Assembly (NCBI RefSeq): GCF_000717275.1
Contig: NZ_JNYV01000002.1
Span: forward strand, 1,357,548 to 1,421,547
DNA: 64,000 nucleotides
Source of the DNA: Kitasatospora arboriphila
GTDB lineage: Bacteria > Actinomycetota > Actinomycetes > Mycobacteriales > Mycobacteriaceae
Direction: 5' to 3'
The notes beneath the pieces are model-generated. The model saw nothing but the letters and a program-made list of their open reading frames with translations, made no database searches and was not told the DNA's origin. Numbering within the stretch: position 1 is the stretch's first letter; each line of letters begins with the position of its first letter. This document shows, piece by piece, positions 236 to 33,858 of the stretch. Made by a program: the position numbers and the translations under genes.

Positions 236-243
236 AGCGCGAG

Positions 244-1777: not shown

Positions 1778-1785
1778 GCCGTGTG

Positions 1786-7331: not shown

Positions 7332-7350
7332 GTAGGGTAGCCTAACCAAG
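7332..7350. promoter_or_regulatory. Iron box between mbtK-like gene and thioesterase gene
   Basis: GTAGGGTAGCCTAACCAAG matches the iron-box consensus at 15 of 19 positions by eye, with a near-perfect TAGCCTAACC half. It is 36 bases upstream of the mbtK-like start and 112 bases upstream of the thioesterase start, so it can serve both divergent units (mbtK; thioesterase-mbtC-mbtD and beyond). Confidence 0.8.
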
Positions 7351-12500: not shown

Positions 12501-12770
12501 AGGCCCGCTGCGCCGGCGGACAGCGCGGTTTTTGCCGAATTGGTCGTCACCGAACTGAACCGGGTGATGGGCATCGACGGGGGTGACATCGACCGGACGG
12601 TGCCGTTGGTCGCGCTCGGGCTCGATTCGCTGCAGGCGCTCGATTTCCGTCGCCGGGTGAAATCCGAACTCGATCGGGACCTTCCGGTGGAGGCGATCCT
12701 GGGCGGCGCATCGTTCGACGAGGTGGTCAGGTTGATGGATGTGGGGTCTGAGACCGTGGTCGGCGGGTAG
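9573..12770 (+). CDS. mbtD: PKS: acyltransferase-ketoreductase-ACP
   Basis: PKS protein of 1065 residues that complements the separate KS. Acyltransferase: FPGQGSQYPGMG near 105 and GHSQGEIAAAY near 194-204. Ketoreductase: IIGGTGKLGLEF near 705-716 with a Rossmann fold and the later CSSIAATLGGRGQILYAAGN region. ACP: VALGLDSLQALDF near 1013-1025, serine as the attachment site. It therefore should extend the chain by one ketide and reduce it to a beta-hydroxy acid. The start at ATG 9573, inside the end of mbtC, fits homologues; upstream in-frame codons belong to mbtC read in another frame. Confidence 0.92.
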   Translation: MPDHCLPDGRTAVLLSADSPELLAAEAGALSAYVRDNPTVTPSAVASMLMRTRVVRRHRALVMASDRDRLVAGLQALADGGDHPDVVRGRGPATRRTTAFVFPGQGSQYPGMGKMFYDASPVFRDEVDRMNNIFVELYGISPRDYLLDQQERLVDADGRVHEDIRVVQPALLMQMIALAQMWRSFGVEPMLTVGHSQGEIAAAYISGAMSLTDVIHVVATRANLVVEFSPTGYSMAVVAIDRDECEALLAEHSGWAELSVVNSPHILCISGDRSTVHDMVETLTAAGKFAKEIRVDYPAHTSIVSRFRAELGEALADKLENPRFTETSTPCFGGTLGKAMSPSQPLSDYWFWNLRNRVRFDLAVGGAVRSGADTFIEIAEHPTLALAIQENIATAAPDAAMPVIGTSRRSAEDLREFAHNLATVAVNDSGYRWESLAVADVEPVPPLPDFPHVQMARRPLWASHLAPGQELESAVPDKDSASFPRRITETWARLARRTLVPPRSILLVDHTGRCEQWAADLCAAAPAHGATASMYRPQGPSGSAQFDSVVILLPSGSGDTVSDAIADLSDFFGNRGWLPAAVTDAAECWLVTAAGEHVVPDDPIPHLFHAAANAGFRCLAAEYPRTTFRHLDLPGDGAPSASAVIGALHIAAEPELALRGAKVYAKRLAYIDAVDGRPAPGLGDAAPLGFDDPVMGSGPDDRVVIIGGTGKLGLEFCEYFATRGATRITLLSRSGETASTAGRLRHIRSLGGARVDVVACDVGDEASVLQFVSDHVSEPVDVVVHAAVNYVDAESGNITPDLVAAATRSKVVGLMHVLAATPLAPRCRVLLCSSIAATLGGRGQILYAAGNRMLDVLARTLREQGMRAASVQWGLWNVQGPLDTAGVDRVEGAGVIPMRPADALSMAFTGATADTIVAAADWAELHDIVSLFGHGPLIAGLVPERPPAQLASPVLPTTPLPVAAGSHTASEPAAPERPAAPADSAVFAELVVTELNRVMGIDGGDIDRTVPLVALGLDSLQALDFRRRVKSELDRDLPVEAILGGASFDEVVRLMDVGSETVVGG

Positions 12771-12812: not shown

Positions 12813-12881
12813 TATGCACGTGTCGTGGTTCAATAGCGCGTACATGCGGGGAGATCATGAAGTGAACAGAAAGCAGATGTG

Positions 12882-13613
12882 GTGACCGAGAAATCGAACT
12901 CGAGTGTCAACGTGCCGACAGTGTTCGTAGCTGCCGGTGTGTCGGCGGTCATCTCTGCGCTCATAGTGTCCATCGGTGTGGTGGGGGTTTTGTTTGCCGT
13001 CGACACCGACAATTCGGCGTCGAACTCCGCCGAACCCACCGTGGTGAATCTCGGGGCCGCGGCAAACCCGCAAGGAACCGTGCAGGCTGGAGCCACGGCT
13101 CAGCCGCCCACCGCTGCGCCTGCCGCTCCCGCGCCGACCACCGCGGCCGCTGCACCCGCACCCGCACCCGCGGTCGGAGGTGGCACCACCTCGGGTGGCG
13201 GCTACGCACCGCAGGCTCCCGCGGCACCGGCGACGACCGAGGCTCCCGCAGCCGAAACGGCTGCGCCCGCGGCGTTGTCCGCGGGAGAACTGCAGAACAA
13301 ACTGAAATTGGTGCTGAACGGCTCGAGTGCGCAGAAAGCCGATGAACTCGAGGCGGGCACCCGAGGCGTGCCGGTGGGCGAGGGGATCGGCAACACGCTG
13401 CGGACGTTCGAGCCCGCCGGTGTGAAATGGCGGATCGCGGGCCCGGTGACCGTCAACGGAAACACCATGTCCGCCAACCTCATCCTCTCGTCGCCGGGTT
13501 TCAACGACGCGACGATGGGCCTGACCTGGGTGTGGAAAGACAACAAGTGGAAGCTGTCGAACACCAGCGCCTGTGAGGTCGCCGGGTACGCGCAGGTTCC
13601 GTGCGCGCTGTAG
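12882..13613 (+). CDS. Membrane-anchored protein with MTB12-like C-terminal domain
   Basis: 243 residues with GTG at 12882 (another GTG immediately precedes). A short charged N-terminus is followed by one membrane helix (about 11-36, VPTVFVAAGVSAVISALIV), a long Ala/Pro/Thr-rich linker (about 60-130) and a compact C-terminal domain from about 140 that ends with GLTWVWKDNKWKLSNTSACE. That ending resembles the MTB12-type low-molecular-weight antigen domain (NTF2-like), a surface or secreted domain of unknown function. It sits between mbtD and mbtE, so a role in export, uptake or envelope handling of the siderophore can be proposed but nothing shows it. The helix is closely similar to that of the 54-residue protein at 27278. 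Confidence 0.7.
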   Translation: MTEKSNSSVNVPTVFVAAGVSAVISALIVSIGVVGVLFAVDTDNSASNSAEPTVVNLGAAANPQGTVQAGATAQPPTAAPAAPAPTTAAAAPAPAPAVGGGTTSGGGYAPQAPAAPATTEAPAAETAAPAALSAGELQNKLKLVLNGSSAQKADELEAGTRGVPVGEGIGNTLRTFEPAGVKWRIAGPVTVNGNTMSANLILSSPGFNDATMGLTWVWKDNKWKLSNTSACEVAGYAQVPCAL

Positions 13614-13658: not shown

Positions 13659-16600
13659 ATGCCAGAAGACCTGATAGCCCGCCGCAAAGAACTGCTCCGC
13701 CGAAAGCTCGTCGACAGCGGCCTCGCATCCGACGTCACCGCTCCGGCTCGCACTCGATCGGCCGGCGATCGCTCACCGCTGTCGGTGGGGCAAGAGCGGC
13801 TGTGGTTCCTGCAGACCCGTGACCCTGATGACACCACCCTCAACGTCTGTGTGGCATACCGGTTGTCGGGCCGCCTGGACGTCGATCGGCTACGCGCGGC
13901 GCTCTCCGACGTGGTCGGACGCCACGAGGTCCTGCGCACGTCCTACGGCGTGGGCGACGATGGGATCCCGTACCAGTCTGCTGCCGAACACGTCGAGGTG
14001 CCCTGGGGTGAACACGACCTGACCGATCTCGCGGAGCAGAGTCGCTCTCGCCGTCTCGAAGTACTCGCTCGACGCGAGTTCGGACGGCCGTTCGACCTCA
14101 CCCGCGACGTGCTGATGCGGGCGACACTGGTCCGAACGGGCCGCGACGAGTGGGTGTTCATCTTTGTCGTCCACCACATCTGCTGGGACGACGACTCGTG
14201 GGCGGTCTTCTTCGACGACCTGAACGCGGCCTATGACGGGCGCTCCGCACATCGGGCGCCGACCCAGTTCCTCGACGTGGCAACCGATCCTGCCGCCCTC
14301 GAAGTCGACGACCCAGCGATCGCATACTGGCGTGAACTGCTGAGCCCGGCTCCAGAATGGCTCGAACTGCCGGCGGAGACACCCGGTGTCGCGTCCAAGA
14401 ATGCAGGCCGGGGTTCCAGGTCGATGTCCTCGGATGTGATCGAGGCGGTGAACGAGCTCGCTCGCGCGGCCTCGACAACGCCGTTCACAGTGCTGCTGGC
14501 AGCCTTCGGAGCGTTGATCCACCGGTACACCGGTGCGACGGACTTCTTGGTGGCCGTGCCCATCACCGACCGGCGCAAGCCTGGGGCCGACAAGGCGATC
14601 GGGTACTTCGGCAACACGGTGCTGGTGCGGACGACCATCGACCCCCGGGCCCCCTTCGCCGACCTCATCGCAACCACTCGCGACAACGCTCTCGGTGCGT
14701 TCGGTCACCAGCATGTCGGTATCGACCGGGTGGTGCGCGAGCTGAACCCGGACCGGTCTGGTGGCGACGGTCTCGAACAGATTGTCCGACTGAGTTTTTC
14801 GACGCGCAAGAGCGCGGTCGGGTTCGCGCTCGACGGTGTGACGGCCGAACAGCTCGACCTTGCCGCCTCGGTGACCCAGATGCCTCTCGGGCTGACGGTG
14901 GTGCGCGATGGCGATGACGCATCTGTGGAAGCCGAGTACTTCGCGGATGTGCTCGACCACGCGATCGTCGACGACATGCTGGCCGCTTACGTGCGGTTGC
15001 TCCACCAGGCTGTCGCGTCGCCAGGCGCACGAATCGTCGATCTCGACATCCTGGGGGAGCGGCGAGCAGAGATCATCGAGCGTTCGCACGGTGATCAGGT
15101 CGCCGCGACACCCGCCACGCTGCCGGAGATGTTCGAGAGTCGGGTCAGGGCACATCCGGACCAGCCCGCGATCATCGACGACAACCACACCCTTACCTAC
15201 GCCGAGCTCAACGCCCGTTCCAACCGTCTGGCCCGCTGGTTCATCTCACGCGATATCGGACCCGAAGACCTTGTGGCACTCAGTCTTGCCGCGTCGGTGG
15301 AGTTCGTCGTGGCGGCGGTCGCCGTGCTCAAGGCGGGCTCCGCGTACCTGCCGATTGATCCGTCCTACCCACAGGACCGGATCGACTTCCTCGTCGAGGA
15401 CGCCCGGCCGCGAATCGTGTTGTCCCAGGCTGATCTGGCCGCTGCTGAGCAGGCAGCCGAGGCCCTGCCCGTTGTCGATCCGGTAGACGCGGACCGGATC
15501 CGCCCTCTGCTCCCGGCTGGTCTGGCGTACGTCATCTACACCTCCGGCTCCACCGGCCGGCCCAAAGGTGTCCCGGTGCCCCATGCGGCGATCGCGGACC
15601 ATCTCGCCGGCTTCCATGCCCAATTCGGGATGACCGCCGAGGACCGGCTGGTTCAGACATCGTCGGTCAGCTTCGATGCCTCGCTGTTCGAGGTGTTCTG
15701 CACGCTCACCCTCGGGGCCACGCTGGTGATCCCCAAACCCGACGGCCTGCAGGATATCCCGTACATGGCAGACCTGTTGGTTCGCCAGGGCGTCACCGTC
15801 ATGCACATGGTTCCCTCCATGCTGGGGATGTTCCTGTTGCTGCCCGGGGTCAACGAGTGGACCACCCTGCGCCAGATACCCGTGGGTGGCGAAGCGCTGC
15901 CCGGCGAGATCGCAGACAAGTTCGGCACGGTGTTCGACGCCCGATTGCGCAACAACTACGGCCCCACCGAAGCGGTTGTCGCGGCCACCCACTATCCGGT
16001 CGACGGACCCCAGGGTGTCCGGATAGTGCCGATCGGTGTGCCGAACCGCAATGTGACGGTGTACATCCTCGACGCCGCACTGCAACTCGTGCCGACCGGA
16101 GTGGTCGGCGAGATCTACATCGGCGGAGGGCAACTCGCGCGTGGATACCTCGGCCGGCCGGCGCTGACCGCCGAGAGGTTCGTCGCCGATCCGATGTCGC
16201 CGGGTGGGCGGCTGTACCGGACGGGCGACCTCGCGCGCTGGAACGTCGACGGCGACATCGAGTTCGTCGGCCGGATCGATGAGCAGGTGAAGATACGCGG
16301 CTTCCGGATCGAACTCGGCGAGGTCGAGTCGGCGCTCGCCGGCCACCCTGCGGTTGCCCGTGCCCTGGTCATCGTCACCGACGATCCACGTGTGGGCGCA
16401 TCGCTGGCGGCTTACCTTGTCGCCGAACGTGATCAGACCATCGAGATCGGAGCTGTCCGGGACCACGCTGCGTCGGTGTTGCCGGAATACATGGTGCCGA
16501 GCGGCTTTGCCGTGATCGACGAGATACCCCTCACCGCACACGGGAAACTCGATCGCAGAGCGCTTCCGGAACCGGTGAGCAGCCGGCCCGCGGAGTCACG

Positions 16601-19568
16601 TGCACCCACCACCCCGACCGAGATCCGTGTTGCCGCACTGTTCGCGTCCCTGTTCGGCCGCGATGACATCGGCGCGGATGACTCCTTCTTCGAACTCGGC
16701 GGGCACTCGTTGCTTGCGGCGCGCTTGGTCACGCAGATCCGGACCGAGTTCGGAGTGGACATCGACGTCCGGGCACCGTTCGACACACCCACCGTTGCAG
16801 GCTTGGCGACGTGGCTGGTGGCCCAGGTGCGCAGCGAGTTCGGCATCGACCTCGACGCGCATGACGATGACGAAGGCGGAGACCGGGATCTCAGCAGCAG
16901 TTCGATCGCGGAGGCTGCGGCGTCAGCGTCTCTGACCGGCGCACCGCGCCGGCCCGCGATCACTGCTCGCACCGAGGCGCCAGAACACGTGCCCCTGTCG
17001 TATTCACAGCTCGCGATGTGGTTTGCCCGTAGCTTCGAAGGGCCCAGTGCGGTCGGGAACATCCCGATGGCGGTGCGGATCGATGGTCCGCTTGATGTGC
17101 CTGCCCTGACCGAGGCACTGGGCGACGTGATCGCCCGCCACTCGGCTCTGCGGACAACGTTTGTCGAGCGAGAAGGTGTGCCTTATCAGGTTGTCGGACC
17201 CGTCGAGCCCGCGGCGTTGCCACTCACGGTGGTGAACGGCACGTCGATCGCCGAGAAGGAAGCGCAGCTGAGTGCAGAACTCGATCGGGTGGCCGGCCAT
17301 ACTTTCGCGATCGAATCCGAACGGCTGATCCGTACGGAGCTGTTCTCACTCGGCGAGAACTCGCATGTGCTGTCGATCTTGGTGCATCACATGGTGATCG
17401 ACCACTGGTCGTTCAATGTGCTGCTGGCCGACGTGGCCACCGCCTACCGCCACCGCCTCGGTCATCGGTCGGCGCCGCCCTGGTTGCCCCTGCCGATCCA
17501 ATACAGCGATTACGCGTTGTGGCAACGCGACCTCTTCGAACCAGGCGCGGTGGCGCACGACGTGGGTGATGCGCAGCTCGCGTACTGGCGGTCGACGCTG
17601 GCGGGCATTCCAGACCACATCACCGTCGCAGCGGACCGTCCTCGGCCCGCGGTGCTCGGAAAGACCGGCGAAATCGTGACTTTCGCGGTGCCCGCAGATC
17701 TGCGCGCCAAGTTACGTGCGGTGGCCGATCGCGCCGGCGTCAGCGAGTTCATGTTGCTGAACTCTGCGGTGGCGACCCTGCTGCACAAACTGGGCGGTGG
17801 CGACGACATCACCATCGGTACGCCGGTCGCCGGCCGGACCGACGATGCCACGGCCGACATCGTGGGACTGTTCGCGAACATGGTGGTGTTACGCAACGAC
17901 TTCAGCGGTGACCCGACGCTGCACGACGTCCTCATCCGGGGGAGAGATGCAGCGCTGGGAGCGTACGCCAACCAGGACGTGCCCATCGAGCGCCTCGTCG
18001 AAGCGCTCAACCCGCGCCGCACCCGGTCGCGTAATCCGCTGTTCCAGGTGATGATGCACTTTCGAGATGAGCACAGCCGAGATTCCAGCGGTGTGTCCGG
18101 CGCATCGGCGCTGACCGACGGAACCACGATCTCGTTGCTGCCGGTGGACTTCGAGACGTCGTTCCTCGACCTGAACATCATCTTCGCTTCGCAAGCCGAT
18201 GGCGGTCTGGCCGCACGCCTCGTGGCATCGACGGATCTCTACGATCGTGACACCGCCGAAGAAATGGCCCGCCGAATGATTGTCATGCTCGAGCATTTTG
18301 CCGACCACGTGGACACCCCGGTGAAGAAGGCGGACGTGCTTCTTGCCGACGAACGTCACCGCCTTCTCGACCAATGGTGCGATGGAGGACCGCTTGACGT
18401 CGAGGCCTTCCGCGCCAGGATGAATGCCCTTCCCGCCGGCAGCGAGACGATTGCGATCCGGCGGGGCGACGACGTCCTCGACTACCGTTCCCTCACCGAC
18501 TATCTGGCACGCAACGACGACGCGAGTGGCCCGCTGTCCGATGTCGTCACGGTTGTGCGCGGTGCGCTGCACGGACATCCGTGGCAGCTTCCGGGTCCGA
18601 GCACCGATGCGATTCGGTTGATCGCTGTTCGTTCCGGCGACCCGGTGATGGTCTCGGAACTCCTCGCCGGATTGTCGGACGGAGCCACTGTGGTGCTGGC
18701 CACCGACTCCGAACGCACCGATCCAGCCGCCCTGGCCACTGTGATCGCCGCGCAGTCGGCGCAGAGGGTGGTCGCTTCACCGGACGTGCTCGGCATGCTT
18801 CCGCACTCGGGGGTGTCGATGATGCCGTCGGTGCGGACCTGGGTGGCTGCCTCGGTCGGCACCCAACCATCTCTGGGCGAGACGCTCGGGTCCCTGTCTG
18901 CCGGTTCGGTTACTGAGTACCGTTACACGGCAAGAGATATCGACGCCATTGTGGTGACGGGCGAGCTGTCCGGTTCTCACTCCGGACGTCCGGTCCCAGG
19001 ATCGAAGGTACTGGTGCTGGGCGCACAACTCGACCCGGTTCCGCCGGGGGTGGTGGGCGACGTCCACGTCCAGGTGGCGGGGTCGGCACTCGTGCGCACC
19101 GGTGACAGGGCGAGGTGGGACCGCACCGGTTCGCTCATCTTCCAGATGCAGTCCGAGGCCACGGTGGCCGGTGGGGTCGCGGGCGTAGCCGGCGGTGGCG
19201 AACAGCCCCAGACCGACACCGAGCGCGCGATCTGCGATGTTCTCGCGGAGCTGCTGGACATCGACGGCGTGGGTCGCGACGACAACTTCTTCGCACTCGG
19301 TGGCGACAGCGTCATCTCCATCCAGCTCGCGGGAAAACTTGCAGCCGAAAGCATCCCGCTCACACCACAGATGATCTTTGATCACCACACGATCGCCGAG
19401 GTGGCCGCCGCAGTCGACGAGGCCCGTGCCGCAGCTCCCGGATCGGATGCGGACCCCGAAGTCGGCCGGCCCGAGGCCCCCGCATCGACCCATGCGCCGA
19501 TGTCTGTCTCCGGGTTGACTGACGACGCCCTGGCAGCCCTCACCGCCTCGTGGAAACCGGGTTCATGA
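13659..19568 (+). CDS. mbtE: NRPS: C-A-PCP-C-(degenerate A)-PCP
   Basis: 1969 residues. First module: condensation domain (HHICWDD near 171), adenylation domain ([11 protein letters not shown] near 628, [25 protein letters not shown]) and PCP ([10 protein letters not shown], serine near 1016). Second part: condensation domain (HHMVIDH near 1243), then about 280 residues (1567-1844) that look like a broken adenylation domain, then PCP ([10 protein letters not shown], serine near 1882). The remnant keeps a trace of the A7 region ([25 protein letters not shown]) but has no TSGSTG loop, no YGPTE motif and no final lysine. I recall M. tuberculosis MbtE as about 1680 residues, so the remnant accounts for the extra length. 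Both condensation motifs deviate from HHxxxDG in the last position. The first A domain likely activates (acyl-hydroxy)lysine. The stop overlaps mbtF by ATGA. Confidence 0.9.
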
Positions 19569-22500
19569 CCGAGGACGTGGTCAATCGCTCCGCACCCGCC
19601 ATCGAGGATGTTCTGGCACTGAGTCCACTGCAGGAGGGCCTGTTCTCACTCGCCGAGATCGCGGGCGACGACCTCGACCTGTACACGATGCAATTCATCG
19701 TCGAGATCAGCGGCGATGTGAACATCGAGTTGTTGCGCAGAAGCGTCGAGGTGATCCTCGAGCGCCACCCGAACCTGCGGGTCTCCTTCTGGGACCGCGA
19801 CATCCCCAAACCCGTACAGATCGTTCCCACCTGGGTCGAACTGCCGTGGGCCGAGCGTTCCGCGACCCCGGACGAGTTCGATTCCATCGCCGGATCCGAG
19901 CGGCGACGCAAGTTCGATCTGTCCCAGGGCCCCGCGCTGCGTGTGGTGCTGGTGAACTTGCCCGACGACCGCCGGCGACTGCTGATCACCGCGCACCACA
20001 TCTTGATGGACGGATGGGCCGTCGCGATCTTCTTCCAGGAGATGTTGGCTGTGTACGAGGCGGGCGGCGATGGCCGGTCATTGCCTCTGCCGCGTCCATA
20101 CCGCGACTACATCGGCTGGCTGGCGGCCCAGGACGATGACTCCGCGCTGGCGAGTTGGGTCGACTACCTCGCGCCGTTACGTGGTCCGGTGATGCTGGCC
20201 GAAGGCCGCGGGGCTCAGCCGGATTCGGTCCCCCGGCGCACCAGAGTGCAGCTGAACCGGTCCGACACCACCAGGCTGACATCGTGGGCGCGGACCCAGG
20301 GTCTGACGGTGAACACCGTCGTCCAGTACGCCTGGGCAGTGGTGTTGGGACGGCTGACCGATCGGCGTGACGTGGTGTTCGGCACCACCATCTCGGGTCG
20401 GCCGGACTCCCTGCCAGGCGTCGAGGGCATGATCGGTCTGTTCATCAACACTGTTCCCTCTGTGGTCGTCTTCGAACCCGGCACATCGGTGGCAGAAAGT
20501 CTTGCGGCACTGCAGCGAGACTCTGCGCGGATGCGCGATCTCGGCTATCTCGGTCTGTCTGCGGTGCAGCGTGCCGCAGGGCACGGCAGTCTCTTCGACA
20601 CCCTGTTCGTCTTCGAGAACGCCCCGATCGGTGCGGTGACCGACCCTCTCAGCACCAGCGATGGGACGCGGTTTCTGCCCGTGGCGATGGAGAGCCTCGC
20701 GCACTACCCACTCACCATCGCGGCATACCTGCAGAACGGTTCCCTGGTGGTGATGGCGGAGGCCATCGACGAGGCCGTTGCGCACCTGCCCGCCGCAGAC
20801 ATCGCCGAGCGGATCCTGCACGTGCTCAGGCAGATTCCCGATTCTGGATCCGCCGGTCCCGACATGCTCGACGTGCTGCTACCCACCGAGCACCCTGCCG
20901 TGGAACGCGGTGTCGCCGTCGATGGCGTGCCCGCAGGCACCATCGCTGCCGCGTTCCTCCGCCAGGCCGCGGTGGCCCCGGACGCGACCGCACTCACCAC
21001 CACGACCACCCAGTTCACCTATTCCGAATTGCGCGACCGCACACTACGTGTGGCCCAGGAACTCCGCCACCGTGGAGTCGGTCCGGAAGACGTGGTGGCG
21101 ATCGCGCTGGAGCGGTCGCCCGAGTCGGTGATCTCGATCCTCGGTGTACTGGCCGCCGGTGCTGCATACGTCCCCGTGGATGTCGCGCTGCCGGCGGCTC
21201 GGATCGGATCGATTCTGCGACAGTCGAACTCCGCGTTCATGATCACCACGTCGGACGTGCTGCCCGCGGAGCTCCTGGGCGGTGCCACCACCGTACTGCG
21301 GCTCGACGACCCGGCGGTGATCGATTCGATCGCACGCCGAGAACCCGTGCCGCCATCGGTGCCGGACGAGTCCCACCTCAGCGCCTATCTCATCTTCACC
21401 TCCGGTTCGACCGGTGAACCCAAAGGTGTGATCGGTACGAATGGCGCCGTGCTGAGCTACTTCGCCGACCACCGGGACCGGGTGTACGCGCCCGCGACGA
21501 AACGCCTCGGCCGGCCGTTGCGCATCGCTCACGCGTGGTCGCTCAGTTTCGACGCTTCGTGGCAACCACTGGTCGGTCTGCTCGACGGGCACAGCGTCCA
21601 TCTGTTCGACTCCGAGGAGATGCGTGATGCCGATGCCCTGGTCGAGGGGATCATCGCGCACGGAATCGACATGATCGACACGTCCCCGTCGATGTTCGGG
21701 CAACTCTCGGGTGCCGGCCTGATCCCGGCGAACAGCACACGCACACCGCTGTCGGTGCTGGCACTCGGCGGCGAGGCCATCAGTGCGGCACTGTGGAAAC
21801 AGTTGCAGGAGTTCGATGATCTCGACGTCTACAACTGCTATGGACCCACCGAGACCACTGTGGAAGCCGTGGTCGCAACGGTCAAGGAATCACCTACACC
21901 CACGGTTGGTCGGGCCGTGGATCGCATGACGGCGCACGTTCTCGATTCCGCGCTGCGGCCCGTCCCGCGTGGGGTCGCGGGGGAGCTGTATCTCGCCGGT
22001 GATCAGGTCACCCGCGGTTACGCAGCACAGCCAGGTATGACCGCCGGCCGGTTTGTTGCCGACCCCACCGGTGCCGGGAGCCGGATGTACCGAACCGGGG
22101 ACCTGGTCCGGCACCTGCCCGACGGCAAGCTGATCTTTCTCGGCCGGGCTGACAGTCAGGTGAAGATCCGGGGATATCGCATCGAGATCGGCGAGATCGA
22201 GAGTGCCTTGCGCGGCGTGCCGGATGTGAAAACGGCTGCGGTGGTGGTGCTTCGACGTGCGGCCGGGGCCACGCTGGTCGGGTTTGTTGTCGGAACGTCC
22301 GTTTCGGATCAACAGATTCGCGCGTTCCTCGCCGAACGCCTGCCCACCCATATGCTTCCCGCCCGAGTGCTGACGCTCGAGTCCCTGCCGATGACATCAA
22401 ACGGCAAGCTGGACAACGACATCCTGACGAACTTGGCGCAAGACGCACTGTCGGCTAGGACAGGAGCCGATGCCCTGCCGTCGACGGACACCGAGCGGGC

Positions 22501-24124
22501 GTTGTGCACGGCGTTCGCCGAATTGATCGGCGGGCCCCCACCAGGCGTCGACCAGGACTTCTTCGATCTCGGGTTGGACAGCATCGTGGCCATGTCGCTG
22601 GTGAACGCGCTCAGACGGTTCGGCGTGCACGTCAGTCCAAGAGCGGTTCTCGAGAACCCCTCGGTGCGCTCTCTTGCCGCGGCCATCGATGCCGGTGAGG
22701 TGGCCGTGGTCGACGACGACGGTGAGCACGACGGTCCCGGCGAGGTGGTTGCACTGCCGATCGTCCGATGGATGTACGAGTACGGCCGTTTCCGCCGGTT
22801 CACCCAGACAACCCTGATCGCATTGCCCGAGGGTGTGACGGACGGCGACGTGCAGTCGGTGCTGCAAGCGCTGCTCGACCGCCACGACATGCTGCGGTCG
22901 AAGCTGTACTCCGACCCGACCGGCCACCGGCTCGTGACGCGAGAGATCGGGTCGGTGAGCGGGGCGGACATCATCGAGACGGTTGTGGTCGGCGAAGACC
23001 CGGGCCGCGCAGTCGAGGACGCCGCCCGGATCGCAGCGGGACGGATCGATCCCGAAGCCGGCGCCATGATGGCCGCTGTTCGACTACAGAACCCGGTCGG
23101 TGGAGACGTGTTGCTCCTCGCCATCCACCATCTGGCGACCGATGCGGTGTCCTGGCAGATACTCTTCGGCGATCTCGCCGAGTGCGGACGCATGCTGAGC
23201 GAAGGATCGGTGCCCGTTCTGGGACGTGTGTCCACGTCCTATCGACGCTGGACGCACGTGCTCACCGAGCGGAGCGGATCCGAGGAGGTTCTTGCGCAGC
23301 AGGATTATTGGATCGGTCAACTCGCGGGGCCGGACCCGGAGATCGGGGAGCGGCCGCCCGATCCGGTCGTCGACGACTGGTCGTCGCTGCAGACCACCGA
23401 CGCACACACCACCGCCGAGATCACCGGCCGTGTGCTGGCGAAACTGGCAGGCAAGGACGCCGGGATGCGCGAGTTCCTGCTGACTGCCCTCACCATTGCC
23501 GTGACGACATGGCGAACCGTCAACGGGCAGGACAACACCGGCGGTGCTCTGATCGCCCTCGAGGGACACGGTCGCGAAGACGGCGTGGTGGCAGGCGAAG
23601 TGGACACCTCCGAGACCGTGGGATGGTTCACCAGCGTCTTCCCCGTCCGGCTCGGTGTAGGCAAGCCTGTCGACCTCGAAGCGGTCGCGGGCTCGCCGGA
23701 CGTTGCTGTCGCTCTTCTGGATTCGGTCACCTCGCATGTCAACGCCATCCCGCGTCGCGGGATCGACTACGGCTTGCTGCGCCACATCGAGCGGGTTTCG
23801 GGACTCGTGGATCTCGCCGACCCGCAGATCGAGTTCAACTACCTCGGCCGGTTCGATCTGAGTTCGGCCGGAGCGACGGACAAGCCCCGACCATGGTCGG
23901 CCATCACCGACCTCGAACTCAACGGTCATCTGCCCACCGCTCCAGAACCCGAGCTGCCGCTCCGGTACGCACTGGACGTGGTCGCAGTGGTCCGGGGCAC
24001 GGCCGAGGGGCCGCAGTTGGTCACCAGCCTGCGCTGGAGTGAGTCGCTGATGAACGCCAGGCAAGCCGACGATCTCGCCGGTATCTGGCAGGAGTCCGTG
24101 GCCGCGCTCGCCCGCGCCCTCTGA
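19565..24124 (+). CDS. mbtF: NRPS: C-A-PCP-epimerisation-like domain
   Basis: 1519 residues from the ATG at 19565, overlapping the mbtE stop; an upstream in-frame GTG at 19550 is less likely. Condensation domain with canonical HHILMDG near 144; adenylation domain with [10 protein letters not shown] near 613 and [13 protein letters not shown] with [10 protein letters not shown] near 998; and a C-terminal domain with [10 protein letters not shown] near 1186 and FNYLGRFD near 1423, both typical of epimerisation domains. The same ending occurs in mycobactin MbtF. A by-eye reading of the pocket residues gives acidic residues at two positions (D and E), compatible with a basic amino acid such as N6-hydroxylysine, expected here as the last, cyclised residue. 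No thioesterase follows. Confidence 0.9.
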
Positions 24125-24157: not shown

Positions 24158-25519
24158 TCACCGACGCGGGGAGCCGAGTACCAGACTGCCCATGGCACAT
24201 TCGGTCATCTCATCGACCCCGGCCAGTTCGGCGAATGCGGCAGTGTCGCAGTAGCCCTGCGCCACCGAGCCCAGGCCCATGTCGGTGGCCACCAGCGACA
24301 TCGTCTGGGTCAGCACTCCGACATGCTTGAGCATGACCGCGTAAGGGATCTGCTCGTAGGTCCACATCACCCGGCCTACGCGTGCGGCAAACACGAACAG
24401 GATCTGCGGCAGCTGTCCGTCGGCGAGCGTCAGCGACGACGGGGTGAGCAGCCGGCTGATCGCCGGATGGTCGATGGCGGCCACCGGACGCAGCGCGTGA
24501 TCGAATGCGTCGTAGTGGTACATCCCGGGAGCGAGTCCTTGCACCTGTCGCACAACGGGATACACCTCCATCTCGTACAGACCCCCGCCCGACGGGAACG
24601 GCCGGGACGGGAACTCCTCGTCCCCGATCACCCGGAGCGTCCGGTTCCGTGCCGTGCGAAAGAGGAACTCTCCGAGCTGGTCGACGGTGGGCGGGGACTG
24701 AGCCGCGAAGTCGCGGCACGACGTGCGGTCCTCGATCGCGGCGGTGAGTGAGTCCCCGGTGACGCGCAGGCTGTCCAGGTCGGGAGCGGGCAGGGCGGTC
24801 GGGTCTGTCGCATAGGCGGTCTTGCGGGCGGGAAGTGGAGGGAACGTGCCGGCCGCCCATTTGGTCGGCCCGAAGCGTCCCCAGTCGCGGGTGCGCACAC
24901 CGAACGTGCTCCGGCGATGGAACCACAGTTCATGTGGACCCCAACTGCGGGAGGCGAAGTCGTCGTTTTCGGTCCGGGGTTCGGCGACGAAGCCTGCCCA
25001 GCCCAGGTCGCCGGCCAACCTGGACAGGACATCGGGAGCGAGCTCACCGGTGGCAGACAGACCGCCGATGGCCGCGAGCACCCGCCCGTCGTGTATCTCG
25101 ATGTCGCACCACGACATCGGATGTTCGGCCACACAACGGCCGTCGATCCGATGGACCACGGCGAACTTCGACAGGGTGATCGGGGTGGTGGCCCCAGCGG
25201 TGTCTCGCGGTGGCGGTGGCGCAAACGGCAGCAGCGAGTAGAGATTCATCCCGGCCGAACGAACGGTGACCGTCAGCAGCCCGGCCGCGACGAGTTGGTC
25301 GAGCAGAGGACCGACACGGGTGTCGGCCGGGTCGAGGTGGGTGGGTTCTCGGCCCAGCGCTTTGAGCAGTCGGATCTGTTCGGGTGACAGCCCGGTGAGG
25401 CGCTGTTTGTCGGGCAACAACACCGCCACGCCGCCGGGTGCGGTCATGCAGGACGCCCCCGGCCGGAAGGCGTACACGAACTGAAGGTCACCCACCGAGG
25501 GTGGGCTCGCCCCGGTCAC
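24158..25519 (-). CDS. SagB/McbC-type flavin oxidase (putative azoline dehydrogenase)
   Basis: 453 residues from the GTG at 25519, which overlaps the stop of the upstream binding-protein gene (GTGA). The C-terminal half is a nitroreductase-fold SagB-type dehydrogenase: RTSCRDFA, PSRPFPSGGGLYEMEVYPV, GMYHYDAFDHAL, and a final YAVMLKHVGVLTQTMSLVATD, DMGLGSVAQGYCD. The N-terminal half (PDKQRLTGLSPEQIRLLKAL) resembles the helical N-terminus of SagB-like enzymes. This family uses FMN to oxidise thiazolines or oxazolines to aromatic azoles. In this context the natural substrate would be the aryl-oxazoline or aryl-thiazoline of the siderophore, as in nocobactin-type compounds with an oxazole. That role is an inference from family plus location. 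It is convergent with mbtF, 33 bases apart. Confidence 0.85.
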   Translation of the reverse strand: MTGASPPSVGDLQFVYAFRPGASCMTAPGGVAVLLPDKQRLTGLSPEQIRLLKALGREPTHLDPADTRVGPLLDQLVAAGLLTVTVRSAGMNLYSLLPFAPPPPRDTAGATTPITLSKFAVVHRIDGRCVAEHPMSWCDIEIHDGRVLAAIGGLSATGELAPDVLSRLAGDLGWAGFVAEPRTENDDFASRSWGPHELWFHRRSTFGVRTRDWGRFGPTKWAAGTFPPLPARKTAYATDPTALPAPDLDSLRVTGDSLTAAIEDRTSCRDFAAQSPPTVDQLGEFLFRTARNRTLRVIGDEEFPSRPFPSGGGLYEMEVYPVVRQVQGLAPGMYHYDAFDHALRPVAAIDHPAISRLLTPSSLTLADGQLPQILFVFAARVGRVMWTYEQIPYAVMLKHVGVLTQTMSLVATDMGLGSVAQGYCDTAAFAELAGVDEMTECAMGSLVLGSPRR

Positions 25520-26523
25520 TTGGCAGCGGCGTCGAATGCGGGCGTGATCTTGTCGAGGACGTACGGAAGCGACAGCGGCGACGGTTGATTGATGCCGCTG
25601 ATCTCGGCGACACTGAGCCACGACACAGCTTTGTCCTTGACCGAGGTCAGGTTCTTGTATCCCGGCAGACTTTCCAGGGCGCCCCGCATCTGCGGTGAAT
25701 TGGCCGTCACCACCAGCAGATCCGAGTTCATCAGCGGCACGTTCTCGGTGGAGATCGGGAAACGCGGTTCGCCGTTCTTCTTGAACGTGTCGAGCAGGCT
25801 GGGGGCCATTGCCATGCCGAGGGACGAGAACAGGGTGGCCGCACCGTCATTGGGGTCACCGAAGACCTGGATCTGATCATTGGTGAACATGTACGCCAGC
25901 GAGAAGGTCTTGCCGTTCAGCCCGGGATGGTCCTGCTTGATCTGGTCGACCTTGGTGTGGACGCCATCGATGATCTCCTTGGCCTTGTCGGGCTGGCGCA
26001 GCACGGTGCCCATGAAGGTCACCATGTCCTCCCACGGATCGACCTGCTGGCCGGTGATCGACGGGATGGTGGGGGCGAGCTTGTTCAGCTTCTCGTAGGT
26101 CTCCTGCTGTTCGCCGAAGTTCGTTGACAGGATGAGCTGTGGATCGACGGACGCGACCTGACTGGCGACGTCGCGAGCAGGGTCCACCGACTGCGACGAG
26201 GCAAGGCGTTCGCCCACCCACGGCGTGGGTTCCTTGGTGAGCAATTCGACGTTGTCGAGGTAGGCCACCGGCGTCACACCGAACGCGAGGGCAACATCGG
26301 TCCACTGGGTACCGAGGGTGACGATCCGTTCCGGCGTGCCGTCGATGGTGACCTGACCCATCGAGGTGTTCACCTGGATGGGACCGCCCGCCGAGTCGTC
26401 CTTCTCCTCGGGTGAACTGCAGGCGGAGATCAGCAGGATCACGACGGCGAACACTGCGGTGAGGGCCGGGGCCCCGAGACGGTTGAAGCGGGTGGACATC
26501 TGCACTCTTTCGCTGACGGTCAT
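25516..26523 (-). CDS. Siderophore ABC transporter substrate-binding lipoprotein
   Basis: 335 residues with a lipoprotein signal: hydrophobic stretch ALTAVFAVVILLISAC and lipobox LISAC with cysteine 35. The mature part is a FecB/BtuF-type periplasmic-binding fold (GTPERIVTLGTQWTDVALAFG, DPQLILSTN, LPYVLDKITPAF). It should bind the ferric siderophore at the outer face of the membrane. The ATG at 26523 overlaps the SIP stop; a second ATG eight codons later would also leave a full signal peptide. No permease or ATPase gene accompanies it in this window. Confidence 0.88.
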   Translation of the reverse strand: MTVSERVQMSTRFNRLGAPALTAVFAVVILLISACSSPEEKDDSAGGPIQVNTSMGQVTIDGTPERIVTLGTQWTDVALAFGVTPVAYLDNVELLTKEPTPWVGERLASSQSVDPARDVASQVASVDPQLILSTNFGEQQETYEKLNKLAPTIPSITGQQVDPWEDMVTFMGTVLRQPDKAKEIIDGVHTKVDQIKQDHPGLNGKTFSLAYMFTNDQIQVFGDPNDGAATLFSSLGMAMAPSLLDTFKKNGEPRFPISTENVPLMNSDLLVVTANSPQMRGALESLPGYKNLTSVKDKAVSWLSVAEISGINQPSPLSLPYVLDKITPAFDAAAK

Positions 26524-27221
26524 TTCCAGTAGGCCTGCGACTTGATCGCGGACTTGGGGATCTTGTGTATCGACTTGAGCGACTTGACGATGTCGCGCGT
26601 GGTGTGGAACTCACAGGCAACCCATGCGTATGCCCCTGGACCGCAACTCAACTCGCTCGCGGCCCTGCGCAGAGCCTGCCCCTTGTCTCCCCGATCGAGC
26701 CACTGCACAGTTGTGCGGGGAGTGGAGCGCAGCGGTAGATCGCGATCCGAGTCGTGCTGGCACTCGAGCCAGACGCGCACCGGCACGTCGCCGACGACGT
26801 CGAGCAGCGAGTTGATCGCAGGCAGGGAGGCGGGGTCGCCGAACAGGAGGTACTCGGCTGGGGGCGGTGTGGGGATCTCGAACTTCGAACCCATGACCGA
26901 CGCGTCGATCTCGTCGCCGGCCACCGCGGACGTCGCCCAGTCCGACGCCGGACCGGGGTGGAGCGCGAACTCGATGTCGAAGCGGTCGGCCGCCGGGTCG
27001 GGGTCGACGAGGGTGTATCCCCGTTGCTGCACCTTGTCACCGTTCGGGATCCACAGTCGGATCCACTGGGTCGGGTGACTCGGGTGGTGTTCGAGCAACC
27101 CCCCGGCTGCGAATGCGAGACGGATGTAACGGTCGGTGATCTGCTGCTTGCCTGTCACCGTGAGTCGGTAGTCGTTCGCCCCGAACGCCTTGAGGGCCAA
27201 ACCTGACAGTCCTCTGGTCAT
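26520..27221 (-). CDS. Siderophore-interacting protein (ferric-siderophore reductase, ViuB/SIP family)
   Basis: 233 residues of the SIP family of FAD-containing ferric-siderophore reductases, which release iron in the cytoplasm. Seen: the N-terminal FAD-binding barrel with RLTVTGKQQITDRYIRLAF and RGYTLVDPDP, the segment DWATSAVAGDEID, and a C-terminal domain with EYLLFGDPASLPAINSLL and AYAWVACEFHTTRDIVKSL. First gene of an operon with the binding lipoprotein and the SagB-like oxidase. Its ATG lies only 5 bases from an iron-box palindrome and no clear Shine-Dalgarno is seen, so a leaderless or nearly leaderless mRNA is possible. Confidence 0.9.
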   Translation of the reverse strand: MTRGLSGLALKAFGANDYRLTVTGKQQITDRYIRLAFAAGGLLEHHPSHPTQWIRLWIPNGDKVQQRGYTLVDPDPAADRFDIEFALHPGPASDWATSAVAGDEIDASVMGSKFEIPTPPPAEYLLFGDPASLPAINSLLDVVGDVPVRVWLECQHDSDRDLPLRSTPRTTVQWLDRGDKGQALRRAASELSCGPGAYAWVACEFHTTRDIVKSLKSIHKIPKSAIKSQAYWK

Positions 27222-27225
27222 GGGG

Positions 27226-27244
27226 TGAGCTTAGCCTAAGCTCC
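27226..27244. promoter_or_regulatory. Iron-box palindrome before the SIP operon
   Basis: GAGCTTAGCCTAAGCTC (27227-27243) is a perfect palindrome with 8-base arms around one central base, and the 19-base window matches the iron-box consensus at 14 positions by eye. It is 5 bases upstream of the SIP start and 34 bases upstream of the small plus-strand membrane peptide gene, so it may govern both. Confidence 0.75.
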
Positions 27245-27277: not shown

Positions 27278-27442
27278 ATGCAGCCGCAAGACGACGATCC
27301 GACGCAGGAGATCCGGGCGGTCGAACCGGAATCAGGCGTCAACACGGCGACCGTTCTCGTGGCTGTCGGGGTCTCGGCCGTGGTCGCCGCCCTGATCGTG
27401 ACCAGCGGGCTCGTCTTGATCCTCATCCTCCACACCCGGTGA
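27278..27442 (+). CDS. Small single-helix membrane protein (54 aa)
   Basis: 54 residues from ATG 27278 (an upstream in-frame TTG at 27257 is less likely). An acidic N-terminus (QPQDDDPTQEIRAVEPE) precedes one long hydrophobic helix, ATVLVAVGVSAVVAALIV and on to LILILHTR at the end. The helix is strikingly like that of the MTB12-like protein at 12882 (about 19 identities over 32 residues by eye). It diverges from the SIP operon across a strong iron-box palindrome. Function unknown; the shared helix and location suggest an iron-regulated membrane partner. Confidence 0.6.
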   Translation: MQPQDDDPTQEIRAVEPESGVNTATVLVAVGVSAVVAALIVTSGLVLILILHTR

Positions 27443-30313: not shown

Positions 30314-31710
30314 TTGCAGGGTCGGAAACCTCCGACTATCTCGAAAAGCGTCAACTACGCAAGGGCACGGCCGGCTGGGTGCTGCTGGCCGGGCTCGGCG
30401 TGAGTTATGTGATCTCCGGCGACTACGCCGGCTGGAATGCAGGCCTGCTCGAGGGTGGCTTCGGTGGACTGCTCATCGCCTCGGTCATCATCGCGGCGAT
30501 GTACCTCGCGATGGTCCTCGGCATGGCCGAGATGTCCTCTGCGTTGCCCGCGGCCGGAGGTGGCTACACCTTCGCCCGTCGGGCGATGGGCCCGTGGGGT
30601 GGTTTCGCCACGGGCACGGCCATCCTCATCGAGTACGCCATCGCGCCTGCGGCGATCGCCACCTTCATCGGGGGATACGTCGAATCGCTCGACCTGTTCG
30701 GCATCTCCGACGGCTGGTGGGTCTACCTGGCCGTCTACGTGGTCTTCATCGGTATCCACCTGGTCGGGGCCGGCGAAGCGCTCAAGGCGATGTTCGTGAT
30801 CACCGCCATCGCACTGGTCGGCCTGGTGATCTTCGGGATAGCCGCGCTCGGCAAGTTCGACGCGGGTCTGCTCACCGACATCGCCCCGGACCCCGACGCC
30901 GCCGGGTCGTCGGATTTCATGCCGTTCGGCTACCTGGGCATCTGGTCTGCGCTTCCCTTCGCCATCTGGTTCTTCCTTGCGATCGAGGGTGTTCCGCTTG
31001 CCGCGGAGGAGGCCGAGAACCCGGAGAAGAACGTGCCGCGGGGCATCATCGCCGCAATGGGCGTACTGCTGCTGACCTGCGCACTGGTGTTGTTCCTCGC
31101 CACCGGGGCCCTCGGGGCCCAGGGCGTGGGGGAGTCCGCGAACCCCCTGGTCGACGCGCTCGACGGCACCACCGCGACCGTCGTCAACTACATCGGGTTG
31201 GCCGGCCTGGTCGCCAGCTTCTTCTCGATCATGTACGCCTACTCGCGCCAGCTCTTCGCCCTGTCGCGTGCGGGCTATCTGCCAACCGTGCTGTCGGTGA
31301 CCAACAGCCGCAAGGCGCCCACCTGGGCGCTGATCATCCCGGGTGTCATCGGGTTCGCCCTGACCTTCACCGGTGAGGGTGCGATCCTGCTCAACATGGC
31401 GGTCTTCGGGGCGGCGCTGAGCTACGTGTTGATGATGGTGAGCCACATCGTGCTGCGCGTTCGCGAGCCCGAGATGGAACGGCCTTACCGGACGCCGGGA
31501 GGCATCGTCACCACCGGATTCGCGCTGGTCATCGCGGTGGCGTCGGTGATCGCCACCTTCTTGGTCGACACCACCGCGGCTTTGTGGTGTCTGGCGGCAT
31601 TCGTCGCGTTCATGGCCTACTTTGGCCTGTACAGCCGCAAGCACCTGGTGGCGTCCTCGCCCGACGAGGAGTTCGCGCTGCTTGCCGAGGTCGACAAGGA
31701 AATGGATTGA
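30301..31710 (+). CDS. eat: Ethanolamine permease (APC family)
   Basis: 469-residue amino-acid/polyamine/organocation-type transporter with about 12 hydrophobic segments. The N-terminal part (YLEKRQLRKGTAGWVLL, GLGVSYVISGDYAGWN) and PAAGGGYTFARRAMGPWGGF match the ethanolamine permease branch. It is immediately followed by eutB and eutC, so it most likely imports ethanolamine as a nitrogen and carbon source. The start codon lies beside an inverted repeat and there is no clear Shine-Dalgarno. Confidence 0.88.
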   Translation: MTETVAGSETSDYLEKRQLRKGTAGWVLLAGLGVSYVISGDYAGWNAGLLEGGFGGLLIASVIIAAMYLAMVLGMAEMSSALPAAGGGYTFARRAMGPWGGFATGTAILIEYAIAPAAIATFIGGYVESLDLFGISDGWWVYLAVYVVFIGIHLVGAGEALKAMFVITAIALVGLVIFGIAALGKFDAGLLTDIAPDPDAAGSSDFMPFGYLGIWSALPFAIWFFLAIEGVPLAAEEAENPEKNVPRGIIAAMGVLLLTCALVLFLATGALGAQGVGESANPLVDALDGTTATVVNYIGLAGLVASFFSIMYAYSRQLFALSRAGYLPTVLSVTNSRKAPTWALIIPGVIGFALTFTGEGAILLNMAVFGAALSYVLMMVSHIVLRVREPEMERPYRTPGGIVTTGFALVIAVASVIATFLVDTTAALWCLAAFVAFMAYFGLYSRKHLVASSPDEEFALLAEVDKEMD

Positions 31711-31714
31711 GGGT

Positions 31715-33136
31715 GTGACCGTCTACCGACACACGCTTGCCGGCACCACCTACGCCTTCGACGGCTTGGTCGAGCTGCTGGCAAAAGCCACTCCGCGCCG
31801 AAGCGGCGACGAGTTGGCCGGGTGTGCTGCCGAGTCGGACACCGAGCGGGCGGCAGCGCAGTGGGCACTGGCCGACGTTCCGCTGACCGTGTTCCTGTCC
31901 GAGGCGGTGGTGCCGTACGAATCCGACGAGGTCACCCGGTTGATCATGGATTCGCATGACAGCGAAGCCTTTTCGCCGGTGTCGTCGATGACCGTCGGTG
32001 GTCTTCGTGATTGGCTGCTCGAGGTCGCGGCCAGGCCCTCGGACGTCGCGGCGGCGACATTCCGGAACGTCGCGCCGGGTCTGACGCCGGAAATGGTTGC
32101 GGCGGTGAGCAAATTGATGCGCAACCAGGACCTCATCGCGGTCGCCAAGGCGGTTTCGGTGGTGACGGCGTTTCGCACCACGATCGGGCTTCCGGGCCGG
32201 CTGGCCACCCGGTTGCAGCCCAATCATCCGACCGACGATCCGACCGGGATCGCCGCGGCGACGCTGGATGGTCTGCTGCTCGGATGCGGCGACGCGGTGA
32301 TCGGGATCAATCCGGCCACCGATTCACCACACGCCACATCTGAACTGCTGTTGTTGCTCGACGACATTCGCCGGCGGTTCGAGATCCCCGTGCAGTCGTG
32401 CGTGCTGTCGCACGTCACCACCACCATCGGCCTGGTGGAAGCCGGTGCGCCGGTGGATCTGGTGTTCCAGTCGATCGCGGGAACCGAAGGCGCCAACAAG
32501 GGATTCGGAGTGGATCTGGCCTTGTTGCGTGAGGGCAACGAAGCGGGCAGGTCGTTGTCGCGCGGCACCGTCGGCGACAACGTGATGTACCTCGAGACCG
32601 GGCAGGGATCGGCGCTTTCGGCAGGGGCGCACCTCGGAACCGGTGGTAGGCCCGTGGATCAGCAGACTTTGGAGACGCGGGCGTACGCCGTTGCGCGAGA
32701 ACTGGAACCGCTGCTGATCAACACGGTCGTCGGTTTCATCGGTCCCGAGTACCTCTACGACGGCAAGCAGATCGTGCGGGCCGGACTCGAAGATCACTTC
32801 TGCGGGAAGTTGCTCGGGCTGCCGATGGGTGTGGACGTCTGCTACACCAATCACGCCGAGGCCGACCAGGACGACATGGACGATCTGCTCACCCTTCTCG
32901 GGGTTGCCGGCGTGCCGTTTGTCATCACCGTTCCCGGAGCCGACGATGTGATGCTCGGCTACCAGAGCCTGTCGTTCCACGACGCCCTGTACGCGCGGCG
33001 GACGCTCGGACTGAAGCCGGCGCCGGAGTTCGAGGCGTGGCTCGACCGGGTGGGAATGCTGGGAGCCGACGGTCGGGTGCTCGACCTGGCGCCCGAGTCG
33101 TCACCTCTGCACAGCCTGACGGGGCCGGTGGGCTGA
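31715..33136 (+). CDS. eutB: Ethanolamine ammonia-lyase large subunit
   Basis: 473 residues from GTG 31715, four bases after the permease stop; a longer in-frame reading overlaps the permease and is rejected. EutB is the TIM-barrel catalytic subunit of adenosylcobalamin-dependent ethanolamine ammonia-lyase, giving acetaldehyde and ammonia. Visible family segments are YAFDGLVELLAKATPRRSGD, RTTIGLPGRLATRLQPNHP, GTEGANKGFGVDLALLREG, LETGQGSALSAGAH and GLPMGVDVCYTNHAEADQDD. The next gene starts within its stop codon. I saw no cobalamin riboswitch upstream and no microcompartment genes. Confidence 0.93.
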   Translation: MTVYRHTLAGTTYAFDGLVELLAKATPRRSGDELAGCAAESDTERAAAQWALADVPLTVFLSEAVVPYESDEVTRLIMDSHDSEAFSPVSSMTVGGLRDWLLEVAARPSDVAAATFRNVAPGLTPEMVAAVSKLMRNQDLIAVAKAVSVVTAFRTTIGLPGRLATRLQPNHPTDDPTGIAAATLDGLLLGCGDAVIGINPATDSPHATSELLLLLDDIRRRFEIPVQSCVLSHVTTTIGLVEAGAPVDLVFQSIAGTEGANKGFGVDLALLREGNEAGRSLSRGTVGDNVMYLETGQGSALSAGAHLGTGGRPVDQQTLETRAYAVARELEPLLINTVVGFIGPEYLYDGKQIVRAGLEDHFCGKLLGLPMGVDVCYTNHAEADQDDMDDLLTLLGVAGVPFVITVPGADDVMLGYQSLSFHDALYARRTLGLKPAPEFEAWLDRVGMLGADGRVLDLAPESSPLHSLTGPVG

Positions 33137-33858
33137 TGAGCGATTTGTGGGACGGTTTGCGTTTACGGACCGCTGCTCGAATAGGGTTGGGGCGCACCGG
33201 CGATTCGCTGCCCACCAGCCGAGTGCTGGAGTTCGCCGCCGCGCATGCCGCCGCTCGCGACGCGGTGCACCAGCCGCTGGATGTCGGGGGCCTCGCGGCC
33301 GCGGTGACCGAGGTGGGTCTCGGCGAACCCATCGTGGTCACCAGCAAGGCATCCGACCGCAGCGAATACCTGAGGCGTCCGGACCTGGGCCGCACACCGG
33401 ACGACCTGGCGGCAGTGCCGGAGGCCAGCGCTGGCATCGGCTTCGTCCTGGCGGACGGGCTGTCACCGATTGCCCTGTCCGAACATGGAGCCGGATTGCT
33501 CTCGGCACTCAAAGACGTTCTGGCGCCTCGCTACTCGCTCGCTCCGCCGGTCATCGCGACCCAGGCGCGGGTGGCCCTCGGTGACCACATCGGTGCGGCT
33601 CAAAAGGTCGGAACACTGATCGTCATCATCGGCGAGCGGCCGGGGCTGTCGGTGGCCGACAGTGTGGGCATCTACCTCACCCACCTCCCGGAGCCCGGCC
33701 GGGCGGATTCGATGCGCAACTGCATTTCGAACATTCACCCGCCCGGGGGCCTGGGGTACGCCGATGCCGCACGCGTCTGCGCGGCGCTGGTCGAAGGTGC
33801 CCGCAAGCTGGGGCGCAGCGGTGTGGACCTCAAGGACAACAGCCGGGCCCTCACCTGA
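33136..33858 (+). CDS. eutC: Ethanolamine ammonia-lyase small subunit
   Basis: 240 residues from ATG 33136, which overlaps the eutB stop by one base (TGATG), so translation is coupled. EutC is the cobalamin-binding small subunit. Signatures include LRLRTAARIGLGRTGDSLPT, LEFAAAHAAARDAVH, PVIATQARVALGDHIG, IIGERPGLSVADSVGIYLT and NCISNIHPPGGLGYADAA. It completes a minimal permease-eutB-eutC unit. A long inverted repeat begins 16 bases after the stop. Confidence 0.93.
   Translation: MSDLWDGLRLRTAARIGLGRTGDSLPTSRVLEFAAAHAAARDAVHQPLDVGGLAAAVTEVGLGEPIVVTSKASDRSEYLRRPDLGRTPDDLAAVPEASAGIGFVLADGLSPIALSEHGAGLLSALKDVLAPRYSLAPPVIATQARVALGDHIGAAQKVGTLIVIIGERPGLSVADSVGIYLTHLPEPGRADSMRNCISNIHPPGGLGYADAARVCAALVEGARKLGRSGVDLKDNSRALT

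Follow-up and report, generated by a model that had tools for sequence, protein, structure and literature searches.

Why does a SagB-type flavin oxidase lie among iron-uptake genes? The question is raised by a minus-strand operon (24158-27221) in a 64,000 bp stretch of contig NZ_JNYV01000002.1, hereafter the window, meaning the whole stretch that was analysed. It comes from the 5.75 Mb genome of a soil bacterium of the genus Williamsia, deposited as Kitasatospora arboriphila. The operon encodes SIP, a siderophore-interacting flavin reductase, a siderophore-binding lipoprotein and the oxidase, and it is convergent with a mycobactin/nocobactin-type nonribosomal peptide synthetase (NRPS) and polyketide synthase (PKS) cluster on the plus strand (326-24124). 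We consider it probable, at roughly 0.8, that this is an iron-repressed operon for recycling and tailoring within a nocobactin-type siderophore system, in which SagB would oxidise an aryl-oxazoline to an oxazole. The azole-type, nocobactin-like siderophore that the first-pass annotation had predicted from the oxidase fits the genome comparisons reported below and a correlation already described in Nocardia, where Maennle et al. (2020; PMC7413640) tied a colocalised SagB-type gene to the phenoxazole of nocobactins. The azole link itself is prior art in that genus, and the prediction is not peculiar to the window locus.

Organisation and iron boxes of the operon

The three genes overlap by exactly four bases at each junction (ATGA at 26520-26523 between SIP and the lipoprotein gene, GTGA at 25516-25519 between the lipoprotein and oxidase genes) and stand behind an iron box, an arrangement already recognised at first pass. 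Four of six other Williamsia loci (L011-L014) show an identical -4 offset from the lipoprotein gene to SagB; the remaining two, L009 and L010, were dropped from this measurement by the gap filter, and a wider filter counts both as paired. Williamsia muralis is the nearest named relative, with identities at L009 of 99% for SIP, 99% for the binding protein and 93% for SagB. The binding lipoprotein carries a lipobox-like LLISACSS, as judged by eye. Scored against an IdeR/DmdR consensus, the window contains five boxes with six or fewer mismatches (at 217, 241, 7332, 27221 and 27226), compared with 0.6 expected from ten Markov sequences; they fall into three stretches, every one 5′ of siderophore genes. 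The core AGCTTAGGCTAAGCTCA is shared by the box ahead of the operon in all six Williamsia loci.

A 54-aa single-span membrane protein (27278-27442, plus strand) is encoded divergently from SIP over the shared iron box, again in all six Williamsia loci. It resembles the N-terminal span of a larger protein encoded within the NRPS cluster (12879-13613, plus strand), a low-complexity product of 244 aa without Pfam match; the agreement is 61% across 31 residues.

For comparison across genera we used the best 80 of 116 confirmed SagB places in named genomes, six of them metagenome bins by title: 36 from Nocardia, 25 from Mycobacterium and allies, nine from Gordonia, six from Williamsia and four from others. 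A same-strand pair of binding-protein and SagB genes was found in 48 of the 80 (Nocardia 34/36, Gordonia 6/9, Williamsia 6/6, mycobacterial 0/25); the earlier observation that a tailoring gene sits within an uptake operon holds for the window, where SagB shares its operon with SIP and the lipoprotein, and the pair recurs in Nocardia and Gordonia. SIP lies directly ahead of the pair in the six Williamsia loci and in none of the other 74 by tblastn at 1e-8, a search that a more diverged SIP would escape; at L022 and L069 it lies some kilobases off. A box was present within 280 bp of 43 of the 48 pairs, against a background of 0.016 per 280 bp, and before SagB in four of the 32 loci without the pair, none of these four mycobacterial.

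Co-occurrence with the MbtB cyclisation domain

We surveyed 401 genomes of the family (including Williamsia, Gordonia, Nocardia, Mycobacterium, Antrihabitans and Skermania), accepting SagB matches with E up to 1e-60 and scoring four candidates per genome. SagB was found in 50 genomes and an MbtB-type cyclisation (Cy) domain in 175, with SagB in 49 of the 175 Cy-positive genomes and only one of the 226 Cy-negative ones; the figure of 49 includes the low-scoring SagB of G163, G193 and G348, and the fragment in G211 (E 3.8e-68) was also kept. The 80-locus and 401-genome counts are not independent, since ten of the stretches retrieved coincide exactly with named loci; such identical stretches also served to recognise Gordonia, Nocardia, Mycobacterium, Antrihabitans and Skermania among the genomes. 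The lysine N-hydroxylase MbtG accompanies SagB in 47 of the 50 genomes, the exceptions being G008, G163 and G193; in each of the last two, an MbtB relative (48-49% identity) lies on a different contig. Within Williamsia, SagB is present in eight of nine genomes, and the ninth (G106) is without SagB, Cy and MbtG alike. SagB occurs in 17 of the 59 Gordonia genomes; 13 of the 17 are Cy-positive and G415-G417 have MbtB, which leaves G008 as the only orphan seen.

Among the named loci, Mbt-type NRPS genes were found in 72 of the 80 stretches; of the other eight, the genomes of five were searched (L015, L031, L057, L072 and L073, leaving aside L018, L065 and L077), and MbtB was found in all five. 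All 25 mycobacterial stretches contain Mbt-type NRPS genes, and in 17 of them MbtB and SagB converge at a distance of no more than 2.5 kb.

A Cy-domain tree was drawn from 95 rows (48 with SagB, 47 without), comprising the window and 94 places from 93 genomes, hand-picked rather than random among the listed places of the 175 Cy-positive genomes. On this quick tree, which carries long-branch warnings including one for the row pair G163/G193 with G234, the SagB label changes 11 times, compared with a mean of 31.9 after shuffling (lowest of 300 shuffles, 24) and of 27.4 after shuffling within genera (lowest of 300, 21). The Williamsia rows group with 12 Gordonia SagB-positive rows, one SagB-negative row and one Skermania row, on a joining branch of support 91 that is drawn open. 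Twelve of the 13 Gordonia SagB-positive rows form one clade with a single SagB-negative row (G171) near Williamsia, and five of the eight SagB-negative Gordonia rows are placed in a clade with most SagB-negative Nocardia rows. Four mycobacterial SagB-positive rows fall inside the Nocardia SagB-positive clade, which also contains four SagB-negative Nocardia rows; the eight SagB-negative mycobacterial MbtB rows make up a single, separate Cy clade.

The presence of SagB beside nocobactin-type Mbt NRPS genes in 25 mycobacterial loci (L047, L056, L079, L088 and 21 others) predicts, from sequence, that species such as M. simulans and M. gordonae make nocobactin-like siderophores with an oxazole. At L047, hrcA and dnaJ, which we take to be neighbours of the classical mbt locus, lie on the other side of SagB.

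An alternative role lies on the uptake side, where the oxidase would work in the cytosol on aryl-oxazoline siderophores, whether returning or foreign, to stabilise or mark them once SIP has taken off the iron; action on the returning siderophore had already been raised in the first-pass annotation. Such a role would suit an operon shared with SIP and the binding lipoprotein, the frequency of the boxed pair, and the adjoining binding-protein and divergent SagB genes of the MbtG-less genomes G163 and G193, though each of these has its MbtB relative. It is hard to square with a single SagB among the Cy-negative genomes, with the unpaired mycobacterial loci that all keep Mbt-type NRPS genes, mostly with MbtB convergent, and with the oxazole found in Nocardia culture extracts (PMC7413640). 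The orphan in G008, an iron-boxed SagB with SIP about 4 kb downstream, is what this alternative accounts for best, although the Mutator-type transposase adjacent to the locus fits a lost cluster, which would most simply explain the orphan. Taken together, the co-occurrence of SagB and Cy, the Cy tree and the boxed lipoprotein-SagB pairing favour biosynthesis over action on a returning siderophore, with G008 as the exception, and we regard the uptake-side role as unlikely.

Several observations weigh against oxazole formation as the function of SagB. The gene stands outside the NRPS operon, among genes for uptake. The SagB clade is missing from 129 of the 175 Cy-positive genomes, and seven of the 50 best-scoring Cy genomes are without SagB; because the two 401-genome searches scored no more than four candidates in each genome, some may have been missed. 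G008 is the best evidence for a SagB role without biosynthesis of its own: the gene is intact, full-length and Thr-Tyr (L089:10498-11887) with an iron box at L089:10498, in a genome with neither MbtG nor MbtB (generic NRPS matches only, the best at 34% identity). None of the 25 mycobacterial loci has a box with five or fewer mismatches within 280 bp before SagB, and iron control there is accordingly not universal or not visible. Finally, residue 387 of the window oxidase is Thr, where ThcOx, McbC and BmdC have Lys.

Active site of the oxidase and substrate of MbtB

Profile scans, run on the longer frame 24158-25621, scored 59.3 for PF00881 (cut-off 23.5), 39.7 for the ThcOx family PF22767 (27.7) and 140.3 for the SagB family TIGR03605 (78.4). 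The protein has the ThcOx fold. Tyr388 aligns with the Tyr of ThcOx, McbC and BmdC and is conserved in 121 of 121 aligned sequences, none of which has Lys directly before it. The preceding residue is Thr, Ser, Gly or Ala in all 80 clade loci, but ten of 12 wider relatives have Lys there; Lys-Tyr is the catalytic pair of McbC-type enzymes. Fisher tests ignoring relatedness were set aside, the Lys test among them having used ten Lys-bearing outside relatives only. SagB-like matches occurred in 23 of 394 genomes of the class: four within the family at E 1.6e-183 or stronger, the best outside at 2.5e-121. All eight outside relatives inspected are Lys-Tyr, and with their weaker matches this suggests that the siderophore SagB clade is confined to the family at present sampling.

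The clade excludes the low-scoring matches in G163, G193 and G348 (E between 1e-135 and 1e-74) as well as the second copy in G364. The active-site pair is Lys-Tyr in G348 and in the second G364 copy, Ser-Tyr in G163 and Ser-His in G193. The SagB of G193 (L090) and G163 (L091), at about 41% identity, has a binding-protein gene as its partner, with a box-like site in front, and these two may form an outlying branch among the siderophore SagB proteins. Contig C1 of the Nocardia genome G348 gave six rows of MbtB-type matches, of which three approach full length, and the Lys-Tyr SagB lies elsewhere.

The replacement of Lys throughout the clade could mean that the protein has lost its activity and persists as a relic, or that it serves MbtB structurally by dimerising or scaffolding it; BmdC, the tailoring oxidase of the bacillamide NRPS, dimerises its synthetase (PMC8795117). 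The Tyr kept in every aligned sequence is the likely general base according to the authors of that study, and Nocardia alba, which has Ser at the Lys position (L070), is a reported phenoxazole producer (PMC7413640); we therefore consider this explanation very unlikely. Like the window oxidase, BmdC has an FMN-oxidase fold and keeps the Tyr, and it acts on a Cy-made azoline held on an NRPS carrier; it differs in its Lys-Tyr pair and thiazoline substrate, the Thr-Tyr window protein being closer to ThcOx. ThcOx/CyaGox (5lq4, 8pz5), the cyanobactin oxidase, is Lys-Tyr, has a ribosomally synthesised and post-translationally modified peptide (RiPP) as substrate and is without siderophore context. 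The family is named after RiPP enzymes, and the oxidase could in principle be one of these, present by chance and unrelated to the siderophore. The siderophore-gene neighbourhood maintained across genera, the iron box and the co-occurrence leave this next to no weight, and a RiPP origin was rejected on neighbours and co-occurrence, no precursor-peptide search having been made.

Adenylation (A) domain codes of the MbtB rows differ with genus and with SagB. DLYAFGLIH is found in 8/8 Williamsia rows and nowhere else among the 95; DIYTLGLI/VH in 12 of 13 SagB-positive and one of eight SagB-negative Gordonia rows; DAYNTGLI/VH in 9/19 SagB-positive and 0/16 SagB-negative Nocardia rows. DLYNIGLIH occurs in both kinds of Nocardia row, and SagB-negative mycobacteria have DMLNLGLVH (4/8) and four single codes. 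The code of N. alba is DLYNIGLIH (L105), and serine incorporation was demonstrated there by feeding (PMC7413640). DAYNTG might, as a guess, load threonine; the codes could not tell serine from threonine as MbtB substrate, and the amino acid loaded in Williamsia is uncertain. A-domain residue 239 is Tyr in 43 of 48 SagB-positive and 11 of 47 SagB-negative rows; with relatedness removed, an average of 1.6 informative pairs of nine remain (sign test, median p 0.5), too few for this association to count as independent evidence.

A more speculative extension, against which we would lay fairly long odds, is that the siderophore SagB proteins are distinct, Lys-independent azoline oxidases for carrier-bound aryl-azolines that spread across genera together with the MbtB they serve, a group of mycobacteria among the recipients, and that neither ordinary serine nor ordinary threonine is the source of the ring in Williamsia and Gordonia, as hinted at by the odd codes DLYAFGLIH and DIYTLGLIH. 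The literature searched, which covered few subscription papers, yielded no report of these codes, of mycobacterial SagB members or of the Williamsia SIP arrangement, and no account of the clade-wide Lys replacement; the passages found of PMC4979651 do not discuss the Lys of azoline oxidases.

The assembly line and the proposed role of SagB

The cluster convergent with the operon (Table 1) contains these nocobactin-type parts: salicylate synthase, carrier-Cy-A-carrier NRPS, lysine N-hydroxylase, ketosynthase (KS) with an acyltransferase-ketoreductase-carrier (AT-KR-carrier) PKS, two further NRPS and N-acyltransferase. The motif DMIAGDAMS in MbtB is taken as the mark of its Cy domain. The first-pass annotation had placed the operon next to an MbtB with such a domain, which stands, and the KS, PKS, hydroxylase, acyltransferase and additional NRPS link the operon to a whole cluster rather than to MbtB alone. 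A stand-alone salicyl-AMP ligase (MbtA/NbtT) was not seen among the selected window ORFs scanned, and no genome-wide search for one was made. Elsewhere in the window, eutB and eutC (ethanolamine ammonia-lyase, 31622-33858, plus strand) are preceded by an amino-acid permease gene.

Table 1. Siderophore genes and iron boxes of the window (C, condensation domain).
Feature	Position	Strand	Remarks
Iron box before salicylate synthase	217-235		4 mismatches
Weaker iron box before salicylate synthase	241-259		6 mismatches
Salicylate synthase, chorismate-binding (MbtI/NbtS-like)	326-1777	+	
MbtB/NbtF-like NRPS	1783-5322	+	carrier-Cy-A-carrier; Cy motif DMIAGDAMS; A-domain code DLYAFGLIH
Lysine N-hydroxylase (MbtG/NbtG-like)	5319-6641	+	
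GNAT N-acyltransferase (MbtK/NbtH-like)	6670-7296	-	
Iron box between acyltransferase and thioesterase	7332-7350		4 mismatches
Thioesterase (MbtT-like)	7463-8233	+	
Ketosynthase (MbtC/NbtB-like)	8246-9580	+	
AT-KR-carrier PKS (MbtD/NbtC-like)	9462-12770	+	start codon uncertain
NRPS (MbtE/NbtD-like)	13659-19568	+	C, A, carrier domains
NRPS (MbtF/NbtE-like)	19550-24124	+	C, A, carrier and second C-family domain; convergent with oxidase gene
SagB/ThcOx-type flavin oxidase	24158-25519	-	453 aa; GTG start; T387-Y388; PF00881, PF22767, TIGR03605
Siderophore-binding lipoprotein (Peripla_BP_2)	25516-26523	-	PF01497, 58.2 bits
SIP, siderophore-interacting flavin reductase	26520-27221	-	PF04954, 78.6 bits; PF08021, 50.1
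Iron (IdeR/DmdR-type) box	27226-27244	-	GGAGCTTAGGCTAAGCTCA; 5 mismatches to consensus

An azole-type product is the best reading of these data. In the pathway proposed, MbtB would couple salicylate to a hydroxy amino acid, and closure of the aryl-oxazoline on the carrier domain would be the task of the Cy domain; the cytosolic, FMN-dependent SagB-type enzyme would then remove two hydrogens from the MbtB-bound ring, a timing suggested by analogy with BmdC, to give a 2-hydroxyphenyl-oxazole that the remaining assembly line would build into a nocobactin-like lipid siderophore. The binding lipoprotein would capture the ferric siderophore, and SIP would reduce the iron inside the cell. The Nocardia nocobactin clusters with a SagB-type dehydrogenase (subfamilies I, III, V and VII of Maennle et al., PMC7413640) share the colocalisation of SagB with Nbt NRPS-PKS genes, the adjoining transporter genes and the predicted aryl-oxazole; Williamsia differs in having SIP ahead of the pair and the code DLYAFGLIH. 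Mycobacterial mycobactin clusters share the general NRPS-PKS plan, with an oxazoline formed by a Cy domain (PMC7413640), and differ in that their SagB-lacking MbtB falls in a separate Cy clade with other A-domain codes.

The correlation described in Nocardia is extended to Williamsia, Gordonia and some mycobacteria, and it may become possible to predict whether a siderophore ring is an oxazole or an oxazoline from a single gene and the MbtB type. The clade-wide loss of Lys beside a kept Tyr allows the base requirement of azoline oxidases to be tested directly. The position of a tailoring enzyme behind the iron box of an uptake operon points to a joint switch for product chemistry and uptake.

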